A stretch of 64,000 nt of DNA. Origin: Flavobacterium sp. 20NA77.7. GTDB lineage: Bacteria > Bacteroidota > Bacteroidia > Flavobacteriales > Flavobacteriaceae. Shown here piece after piece: positions 13,886 to 45,071 of the stretch (position 1 is the stretch's first letter; the number at the start of each line of letters is the position of its first letter). Location of the stretch: contig NZ_CP133721.1 of the NCBI RefSeq assembly GCF_031326205.1, forward strand, positions 744,001-808,000. Reading direction: 5' to 3'. The notes under the pieces are model-generated. The model saw only the letters and a list, made by a program, of their open reading frames with translations. It was not told the origin of the DNA and made no database searches. Made by a program: the position numbers and the translations under genes.

Positions 13886-13916
13886 AAAAAAATCCCGATT
13901 ATTCGGGATTTTTTTA
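13884..13916. terminator. Terminator after bcp
   Basis: AATCCCGA-ttat-TCGGGATT (13891-13910), preceded by an A tract and followed by a T tract. It can act in both directions between bcp and the convergent 485-residue gene. Confidence 0.85.
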
Positions 13917-44265: not shown

Positions 44266-44340
44266 CGGGGTGTAGCGTAGCCCGGTTATCGCGCCTGGTT
44301 TGGGACCAGGAGGTCGCAGGTTCGAATCCTGCCACCCCGA
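44266..44340 (+). tRNA. tRNA-Pro (anticodon TGG)
   Basis: A perfect acceptor stem CGGGGTG/CACCCCG. The anticodon stem CCTGG/CCAGG has loop TTTGGGA, giving anticodon TGG. T arm is GCAGG-TTCGAAT-CCTGC. A73 is followed by CA rather than CCA. The 3' half of this gene (from GGTCGCAGG at 44312) is repeated twice downstream at exact 348-bp intervals. Confidence 0.95.
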
Positions 44341-44345
44341 CAAGA

Positions 44346-44375
44346 AATCCTTTCCAATTTGGAAAGGATTTTTTT
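44346..44375 (+). terminator. Terminator after tRNA-Pro (array copy 1)
   Basis: AATCCTTTCC-aattt-GGAAAGGATT followed by a T tract. The stem is perfect. Confidence 0.88.
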
Positions 44376-44389
44376 ATTTTGGTTAACTT

Positions 44390-44650
44390 ATGTTTTACGT
44401 TTATATTTTATATTCAAAAAAACTGGATACTTATTATGTAGGCTCTACATCTCAGACAGTAACTCAAAGGTTGCAGAAACATTTGAGCAATCACGCTGGA
44501 TATACCTCAAAAGCTAAAGATTGGGAAATAGTTTATTGTGAGGAATACTCTTTAAAAACAGTTGCATTAAAGAGGGAAAATGAAATTAAGCGTTGGAAAA
44601 GTAAAATCAAAATTAAATTTTTGATTGACGGATTATCGCGTCCCGATTGA
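44390..44650 (+). CDS. GIY-YIG nuclease family protein, array copy 1
   Basis: An 86-residue single-domain GIY-YIG endonuclease (UPF0213/YhbQ-like). The domain motif appears as YVYILYSKK...YYVGST, the catalytic Arg is in VTQRLQKHL and the metal-binding Glu in ALKRENEIKRWKSK, so it looks intact. The last codons (GLSRPD) run into a tRNA-like sequence: the bases encoding them include TTATCGCG, which is also found in tRNA-Pro just before its anticodon stem. The gene begins only about 15 bases after the tRNA terminator and has no clear promoter. Family members are usually stand-alone. Here the gene is one element of a tandem duplication. Its target is unknown. Confidence 0.88.
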   Translation: MFYVYILYSKKLDTYYVGSTSQTVTQRLQKHLSNHAGYTSKAKDWEIVYCEEYSLKTVALKRENEIKRWKSKIKIKFLIDGLSRPD

Positions 44651-44688
44651 AATCGGGAAGGTCGCAGGTTCGAATCCTGCCACCCCGA
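44633..44688 (+). pseudogene. tRNA-Pro-like 3' fragment, copy 1
   Basis: Begins TTATCGCG like the D-arm 3' part of tRNA-Pro. A TCCCGATTGAAATCGGGA hairpin stands in the place of the anticodon arm. The exact T arm and 3' acceptor strand follow (AGGTCGCAGG... to CACCCCGA). The 5' acceptor and D strands are absent, so it cannot fold as a full tRNA. Confidence 0.8.
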
Positions 44689-44693
44689 CAAGA

Positions 44694-44723
44694 AATCCTT
44701 TCCAAATTGGAAAGAATTTTTTT
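44694..44723 (+). terminator. Terminator, array copy 2
   Basis: The same stem as copy 1 with two changes (CCAAATTGG, AAAGAATT). One alters the loop and one creates a C-A mismatch, so it should be weaker. Confidence 0.6.
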
Positions 44724-44737
44724 ATTTTGGTTAACTT

Positions 44738-44998
44738 ATGTTTTACGTTTATATTTTATATTCAAAAAAACTGGATACTTATTATGTAGGTTCTACATCT
44801 CAGACAGTAACTCAAAGGTTGCAGAAACATTTGAGCAATCACGCTGGATATACCTCAAAAGCTAAAGATTGGGAAGTAGTTTATTGTGAGGAATATTCTT
44901 TAAAAACAATTGCATTAAAAAGGGAAAATGAAATTAAGCGTTGGAAAAGTAAAATCAAAATTAAATTTTTGATTGACGGATTATCGCGTCCCGATTGA
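44738..44998 (+). CDS. GIY-YIG nuclease family protein, array copy 2
   Basis: The second 86-residue copy, offset by exactly 348 bp. Relative to copy 1 it has five base changes in the gene, three silent and two conservative (Ile to Val in WEIVYC, Val to Ile in KTVALK). All catalytic residues remain (YVYIL...YYVGST, the Arg in QRLQKH, the Glu in KRENEIKRW). The high share of silent or conservative changes suggests both copies are under some constraint. It again ends in GLSRPD over tRNA-like sequence and is followed by a tRNA-Pro 3' fragment and terminator. Confidence 0.88.
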   Translation: MFYVYILYSKKLDTYYVGSTSQTVTQRLQKHLSNHAGYTSKAKDWEVVYCEEYSLKTIALKRENEIKRWKSKIKIKFLIDGLSRPD

Positions 44999-45036
44999 AA
45001 TCGGGAAGGTCGCAGGTTCGAATCCTGCCACCCCGA
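44981..45036 (+). pseudogene. tRNA-Pro-like 3' fragment, copy 2
   Basis: Identical in layout to the fragment at 44633-44688: TTATCGCG, the CCCGATTGAAATCGGG hairpin, then the T arm and acceptor 3' strand of tRNA-Pro to CACCCCGA. Confidence 0.8.
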
Positions 45037-45041
45037 CAAAA

Positions 45042-45071
45042 AATCCTTTCCAATTTGGAAAGGATTTTTTA
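45042..45071 (+). terminator. Terminator, array copy 3
   Basis: AAATCCTTTCC-aattt-GGAAAGGATTT with a T tract. Here the stem is perfect again, closing the array. Confidence 0.85.

Follow-up and report, generated by a model that had tools for sequence, protein, structure and literature searches.

Here we describe a family of short units, anchored on tRNA genes and found across the Bacteroidota, which are probably minimal selfish elements that spread by nuclease-stimulated recombination. The autonomous unit consists, in order, of a terminator, a GIY-YIG nuclease gene of the SLX1/UPF0213 lineage, a partial tRNA in which one stem-loop has been exchanged for a hairpin, and the tRNA 3' end. The invaded tRNA itself stays intact, and the hairpin-marked copy stands beside it. 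The founding example lies in a 64-kb stretch of DNA, hereafter the window, which comprises bases 744001-808000 of a single-contig 2.33-Mb genome. An earlier note on the window, made from its sequence alone, had recognized the repeated units but overlooked the hairpin swap, the units that lack the nuclease and the mirror arrangement in which units precede tRNA genes.

Results

The tRNA-Pro locus of the window

In the window, an intact tRNA-Pro gene is followed by two direct copies of a 348-bp unit (Table 1). Copies of the tRNA 3' segment, GGTCGCAGG...CCCCGAC, begin at 44312, 44660 and 45008, at spacings of 348 and 348 bp, and exactly 7 of the 348 positions are different between the two units (44312-44659 and 44660-45007). 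Between the two nuclease genes there are three synonymous and two amino-acid changes. The start positions, the spacing and the seven differences had been given in the earlier note and proved exact, and its description of each unit, in which a terminator and a GIY-YIG nuclease gene precede a restored 3' end of the tRNA, was confirmed. The inverted repeats 3' of all three tRNA ends are followed by T runs. Each partial tRNA-Pro reads, in order, the D-arm fragment TTATCGCG, the hairpin TCCCGATTGAAATCGGGA, and then a variable loop, a T arm and an acceptor strand of normal form. Sequences of the form TCCCG(2-14)CGGGA occur three times in the window, against 0.03 expected; two are the unit hairpins, and the third is a terminator-like site at 13893.

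Table 1. Features of the tRNA-Pro locus, in positions of the window
Feature	Position	Strand	Support
Intact tRNA-Pro(TGG)	44266..44341	+	ARAGORN; Rfam tRNA 69.1 bits
tRNA 3' segment (end of the variable loop, T arm and acceptor), copy 1, within the intact tRNA	44312..44341	+	
Terminator-like inverted repeat, copy 1	44342..44374	+	
GIY-YIG nuclease gene, unit 1, 86 aa	44390..44650	+	ORF; Pfam PF01541
D-arm fragment TTATCGCG, unit 1, overlapping the ORF end	44633..44640	+	
Hairpin TCCCGATTGAAATCGGGA substituting for the anticodon arm, unit 1	44641..44658	+	
Rebuilt tRNA-Pro 3' part (T arm and acceptor strand), copy 2	44659..44689	+	
Terminator-like inverted repeat, copy 2	44690..44722	+	
GIY-YIG nuclease gene, unit 2, 86 aa	44738..44998	+	ORF
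D-arm fragment TTATCGCG, unit 2	44981..44988	+	
Hairpin TCCCGATTGAAATCGGGA substituting for the anticodon arm, unit 2	44989..45006	+	
Rebuilt tRNA-Pro 3' part, copy 3, adjoining the flank with the lipoprotein gene	45007..45037	+	
Terminator-like inverted repeat, copy 3	45038..45070	+	

Six neighbour proteins were scanned against Pfam, and five gave matches (uridine kinase, DivIC, methylmalonyl-CoA mutase, DciA and a TonB receptor), the sixth having none. No integrase or transposase was found among these six, and no ORF of integrase size lies inside the 348-bp unit.

A hairpin in place of a tRNA arm

In the family, the downstream tRNA copy typically has one stem-loop swapped for a TCCCG...CGGGA hairpin, most often the anticodon arm (positions 27-43) and less often the T arm. 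A strict remnant, with at most 1 mismatch in 12, was found in 85 of the 120 linked units with enough sequence; the other 35 include decayed copies and copies with an interrupted T arm. A stem of at least 5 bp is present in 82 of the 85 strict remnants, a count that comes from an automatic pick and includes a few chance stems, and the stem starts with TCCCG in 56 and with TTCCG in 11. When each remnant was compared with its own tRNA (n = 86), it rejoined the tRNA at positions 42-44 in 39 cases and at 54-63 in 29, two-hairpin copies included. Left matches of 6 nt or more were present in 54 remnants, 26 of which depart from the tRNA at 26-28. It is because these rejoining (42-44) and departure points prevail that the anticodon arm is identified as the one most often replaced. 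Units of the Asp, Asn and Phe types are mostly altered in the T arm instead. Three remnants (the second copy of L101, L108 and L146) have no trace of the arm concerned. A second hairpin, within the T loop, is seen in a subset of the Val and Pro units. Such T-loop hairpins were noted in L037, L043, L072, L091, L138 and L139, in some of them followed by CAAGCT- or TRAACT-like bases.

The hairpin pairs covary. Among the 115 remnants anchored on TYCCG...CGGRA, 97 have C-G as the Y-R pair, 17 have T-A and 1 has a mismatch there. The next two pairs are Watson-Crick in 110/115 and 101/113 remnants, against shuffle means of 77.1 and 53.2 (0/2000 shuffles), and the third inner pair in 38/74, against a mean of 32.0 (65/2000 shuffles), the tests being inflated by the relatedness of the remnants. 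Because the length of the hairpin loop varies, a folded strand would be favoured over a fixed duplex site. An ordinary terminator was considered for the hairpin and rejected, as no T run follows it in the remnants; a T run does follow many other TCCCGA..TCGGGA palindromes that were inspected in the window's genome. Palindromes of the form TCCCGA(0-12)TCGGGA number 37 in that genome, against 2 in the reversed control, many of those inspected resembling terminators and a few lying elsewhere. The hairpin is the cis feature common to nearly all of the unit forms inspected.

The nuclease

The window's first nuclease ORF matches the Pfam GIY-YIG family (PF01541) at E 7.8e-16, and the Tyr, Arg and Glu conserved in the catalytic domain of the superfamily are present, Y5, Y16, G18, R27, H31 and E63 being invariant in 21 sequences. 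Intact members are mostly 80-95 aa in length, and no extra DNA-binding domain was seen in them. Profile matches in the PDB at E ≤ 0.1 comprise seven distinct sequences, two of UPF0213 and five of SLX1. The nearest is 1zg2 (UPF0213; E 6e-13), the best SLX1 match has E 1.3e-4, and 1ywl was also retrieved; the profile is closer to SLX1/UPF0213 than to I-TevI, UvrC or the GIY-YIG restriction enzymes. A conserved C-terminal Asn is described, in a 2006 GIY-YIG survey, as typical of the UvrC/HEase lineage (PMC1564403), and no invariant or nearly invariant Asn was found in the 21 sequences. According to their abstracts, SLX1 and ANKLE1 are GIY-YIG nucleases of branched DNA. Where the family departs from the SLX1/UPF0213 lineage is in the stand-alone, vertically inherited habit of the latter, for it has empty and occupied sites, tRNA linkage and arrays.

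In 77 between-locus pairs with 0.15 < dS < 1.5, which are non-independent, omega has a median of 0.18 and a maximum of 0.35, with no value above 1; from this median we conclude that the nuclease is under purifying selection and is therefore kept functional. Tandem copies are often near-identical, and some copies are broken. No family among the PADLOC models matched up to E 1, and a PHROG homing endonuclease matched only at E 0.008.

Units without a nuclease and mirror units

Searching 60 genomes for the hairpin joined to a T arm gave 39 matches, against 1 in the reversed control. Compared by eye, 27 of these lie in nuclease arrays and 12 outside them. Units of 80 bp that follow a tRNA-Ala account for eight of the 12; they lie in four rRNA operons of one genome (G022; L212-L215), the spacers of which hold 3, 2, 1 and 2 copies of this hairpin/tRNA-Ala 3' unit; within this one genome, then, unit copy number varies. 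The remaining nuclease-less matches are found behind tRNA-Thr and tRNA-Arg, together with two upstream copies beside tRNA-Val. Mirror units also occupy the upstream side of intact tRNA genes: G609 has three in tandem, G608 one and G347 two, and in G220 a mirror unit with a nuclease occupies this position; in G008 there is one unit on each side of a tRNA-Ala. A stricter, tRNA-Val-type pattern was matched in 7 of 148 genomes of the phylum and 0 times in the control. Mirror units count against a simple 3'-end model, because such a model does not predict them.

All eight G022 units score above the Rfam tRNA threshold (32.9-37.6 bits, against 29), and among 20 other loci the threshold is passed by the remnants of L007, L034, L101 and L126 and by one upstream copy in L078; a few remnants are called as tRNA by ARAGORN. 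These scores are what would be expected if the hairpin-bearing partial tRNA were a transcribed tRNA mimic, with the GIY-YIG protein acting on RNA or forming part of a toxin-antitoxin-like pair. The same account would draw on pairing that persists across loops of differing length, which a folded single strand would be expected to show, and on the mirror units just upstream of tRNA genes, which are probably transcribed. We nevertheless consider it unlikely: neither the window's partial copies nor most of the remnants at the 20 other loci match the Rfam tRNA model, terminator-like repeats stand between the tRNA and the nuclease gene, and the nearest solved relatives of the protein are UPF0213 and SLX1, SLX1 being a DNA nuclease.

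Empty and occupied orthologous loci

A downstream-flank search of 299 genomes of the genus yielded 30 loci; in six of them, besides the window's own, the two flanking genes are present together with a tRNA-Pro or a unit. The gene order at this locus is uridine kinase, tRNA-Pro, lipoprotein, DciA. The site is empty in G226, G113, G062 and G245, where nine GIY-YIG queries gave no match (in G245, about 250 nt past the tRNA was covered). It is occupied in the window, in G104, which has a unit, and in G189, which has the end of one. A duplication private to the window's genome is ruled out by the relatives with units. Species differ in the orientation of the tRNA-Pro gene that lies between the genes for uridine kinase and the lipoprotein, which is inverted in some of them but not in others (L184, L186 and L188, compared with the window, L183 and L185).

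Between the empty allele of G062 and the occupied allele of G104, the terminator is identical and the 300 nt upstream are 94.7% identical; downstream, identity is 74% in the intergenic stretch and 88% in the next gene. What G104 has in addition is one 346-bp unit, with a nuclease from another subfamily, and the tRNA end and terminator are present twice in this allele. In G189, the flank past the last tRNA end resembles that of the empty G113. A second case concerns a tRNA-Ala: G008 is occupied, by a unit whose nuclease has a stop codon, and has an upstream mirror copy as well, and in G006 the downstream side has no unit and the upstream side reads N. Presence and absence at a fixed site, with the target tRNA gene intact, is one trait expected of a homing endonuclease element.

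The earlier note had postulated a minimal nuclease cassette at a tRNA end, variable in presence and in copy number, and both kinds of variation were found, the first in these orthologues and the second in arrays of 2-6 copies elsewhere. It had also called for a search for similar units at other tRNA genes, and these turned up at tRNAs of nine amino-acid types. The outcome that it had named as pointing to a mere local duplication, namely the same two copies in every relative and none elsewhere, did not occur. As for the homing-type cleavage near the T arm that it had raised as a possibility, it is the anticodon arm and not the T arm that is most often altered.

Distribution in the Bacteroidota and linkage to tRNA genes

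A protein match at E ≤ 0.001 was obtained in 39 of 60 relatives, in which arrays of 6, 5 and 3 copies, spaced at 350-392 bp, were seen. A protein-pattern scan of named genomes gave 591 pattern matches, at least 484 of them confirmed. The best 80 loci were kept, all of them from Bacteroidota as far as their titles tell, and hold 81 single copies or arrays, 32 being arrays. Among these best 80 loci, 75 copies or arrays have at least 150 nt of upstream sequence; 63 of the 75 lie no more than 260 nt behind a tRNA gene, one of these links being an uncertain ARAGORN call, and 59 lie no more than 110 nt behind one. When 240 distinct GIY-YIG places were scored, the clade was tRNA-linked at 124 of 179 (one link, to tRNA-His in L281, is doubtful) and the stand-alone groups at 0 of 61 (0/21 for UPF0213-like proteins and 0/40 for the other group). 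The 55 clade members with no tRNA call close upstream are at contig ends, displaced or decayed. The linked units are distributed over many families and genera.

In a tree of 195 proteins, built by a quick method on 90 columns and with many forks left open, linked and stand-alone proteins are separated by a split of 99% SH-aLRT, with one linked/stand-alone change, and the tRNA types are clustered (48 changes over all labels, against a shuffled mean of 125.7). At E ≤ 1e-13 the profile finds members in 167 of 296 genomes and 91 of 139 genera of the phylum, which are upper bounds, as stand-alone relatives may pass this threshold. Among the best 30 phylum loci, which include the window and one locus sampled earlier, 26 are tRNA-linked and 10 are tandem; a remnant (allowing up to 2 mismatches in 12) is present in 21, with a stem in 19 of the 21.

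No vehicle for the units is evident from annotated phages, among which the nuclease had no match, or from two viral contigs of IMG/VR that carry relatives. On one IMG/VR contig (L150, bases 1-252), a tRNA-Arg-type unit is located at the extreme end of the predicted viral contig. Plasmid matches (14 records) are distant proteins of rhizobia and Azospirillum; one such relative lies between the genes for a GlxA-family regulator and htpG, in a record whose annotation table has no RNA genes. Elsewhere in the window's genome, a broken GIY-YIG copy without a recognizable remnant is found behind a tRNA-Val (L003; G000:C1:1094886-1098092). Arrays of tRNA-Pro type with different nuclease subfamilies occupy what is apparently the same tRNA-less place in G005 (L006/L039) and G007 (L036), with a tRNA-Pro end fragment at the start of each.

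Integrase islands at unit-bearing tRNA genes

In G606, G608 and G609 (L329-L333), tyrosine-integrase islands lie inside the anticodon arm of unit-bearing tRNA-Val genes, and their integration has moved the units 8-50 kb away. An intact tRNA-Val precedes the displaced fragment by 8-50 kb, in the same strand of the same contig, and close to the fragment there is a gene for a tyrosine integrase. The island ends begin within the native anticodon arm and are without the hairpin. Displaced units that start inside the anticodon stem, at five loci, were considered as a sign of the nuclease cut site, an idea that was discarded because in these three genomes they are island ends. The other two loci are L096, the two pieces of which lie at the ends of contigs, and the tRNA-Pro unit L114.

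That islands use the same tRNA-Val genes speaks for the idea that the units serve the host, by protecting or marking the tRNA gene (for example against tRNA-using integrases) or by tuning tRNA dosage, with the nuclease kept for the benefit of the host. Purifying selection on the nuclease and the broad spread in the phylum also agree with a host function. However, islands in the unit-bearing tRNA-Val of three genomes mean that protection is at best incomplete, the units are patchy among relatives, and neither the lack of a PADLOC match nor the broken copies fit such a role, which we judge improbable.

Plain tandem duplication in place, of a tRNA 3' end with a resident and immobile nuclease gene, would account for the many near-identical tandem copies, and since tRNA-adjacent terminators are often duplicated together with the tRNA end, some arrays probably did grow in this manner. 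As a general explanation it is largely refuted by the empty and occupied orthologous sites and by the same layout at other tRNA genes, of nine amino-acid types and in many families and genera. The existence of a nuclease clade dedicated to tRNA-linked units, and of a like hairpin swap in most remnants, makes it more doubtful still, and we give it very little credence. Least credible of all is passive hitch-hiking at the attachment site of an integrase, in which case integrases located elsewhere in the cell would have produced the repeats as att sites: a regenerated tRNA with a 3' fragment is indeed the layout of tRNA-directed integration, and true integrase islands do occur at the same tRNA genes, but a unit of about 350 bp is too short for an integrase, the inspected units carry a GIY-YIG nuclease or no ORF, and the hairpin that replaces a tRNA arm in the units is missing from the island ends.

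Discussion

A proposed model for nuclease-driven spread

As judged from sequence comparison, the units are best described as a putative nuclease-driven selfish element, related in kind to known ones, a designation that stops short of a proven homing element. In the scheme that we propose, the nuclease would cut the tRNA gene, perhaps at a hairpin or cruciform made by a tRNA arm, and the break would be repaired from a unit by way of the common tRNA 3' end, such that the unit is inserted and the tRNA still works. The hairpin copy may be the element's own end or, alternatively, an uncuttable version of the target. Tandem arrays could arise by repeated copying or by unequal recombination between the repeated tRNA ends, and units without the nuclease could be non-autonomous or deletion derivatives. 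Weighing against the scheme are the 55 of 179 clade members for which no tRNA was called nearby upstream and the 35 of 120 linked units in which the strict rule finds no remnant.

Kinship with SLX1, the replacement of a stem-loop and the paired hairpin together point to a tRNA arm, folded at the DNA level, as the probable object of recognition. Comparison of the occupied and empty alleles found the upstream tRNA to be identical in the occupied G104 and the empty G062 and the downstream copy to be altered; because the two tRNAs are the same, an occupied locus would not be obviously immune if the whole target lay within the tRNA. We tentatively advance a further reading, one that falls short of being our expectation, in which the units form a new class of mobile element. 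Here the hairpin-marked partial tRNA would itself be the moving or duplicating unit; a minimal GIY-YIG nuclease of the SLX1 lineage, turned from DNA repair to parasitism, would recognize it in folded form as DNA, and units with and without the nuclease would have spread on either side of tRNA genes within one phylum, always leaving an intact tRNA.

The units illustrate how an element might harbour at an essential gene without breaking it, and they could re-explain many small proteins annotated merely as 'GIY-YIG nuclease family protein'. The hairpin swap constitutes a conserved structural rule. No account of tRNA-anchored GIY-YIG units in Bacteroidota appeared among the top results of our literature search, the scope of which excluded subscription journals and preprints, so this is weak evidence of absence.

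Relation to known systems

At about 350 bp, the units would rank as very small autonomous parasites of bacterial chromosomes. They resemble the REP/REPIN sequences and their RAYT transposases in being short hairpin elements with enzyme-bearing and enzyme-less forms and a single small enzyme; RAYTs, however, belong to another enzyme family, and these elements are not known to be tied to tRNA genes. With tRNA-directed tyrosine-integrase islands they share a regenerated tRNA 3' end and a displaced 3' fragment, but such islands need an integrase and carry large cargo, whereas the units are about 350 bp with a GIY-YIG gene.

UPF0213/SLX1-like proteins are nearest by profile and likewise have a minimal GIY-YIG domain. 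That family is portrayed, in the 2006 survey, as conserved and inherited vertically, with a few exceptions (PMC1564403), unlike the tRNA-anchored, multicopy and patchy family of the window. The same text derives the selfish homing and restriction members from a UvrC-related lineage and raises as an interesting question whether other members are molecular parasites (PMC1564403). The units are strong candidates for parasitic GIY-YIG members of the SLX1 lineage, and the question as worded there is now testable.

Mobile ORFs of fungal mitochondria, with a foreign C-terminus, are described for the atp6 genes of Allomyces and Glomus (PMC3630166). As in the units, an endonuclease gene sits in a host gene and carries a copy of its 3' end, the native 3' end persisting as a remnant (PMC3630166). 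The hosts are, by contrast, protein genes, and the excerpted account makes no mention of hairpin replacement or tandem arrays (PMC3630166).

SegB of phages T4 and T6, as presented in the available sections of its report, is a free-standing GIY-YIG homing endonuclease that cuts within tRNA genes and drives tandem amplification (PMC13096335). A GIY-YIG nuclease gene beside tRNA genes and tandem amplification are common to both systems (PMC13096335). SegB is, however, phage-borne, and those sections report neither a regenerated tRNA end nor a hairpin-swapped tRNA copy (PMC13096335). By our own reading, the SegB motif RAWTSGAAC given there is the reverse complement of GTTCSAWTY, a T-arm-like sequence (PMC13096335).
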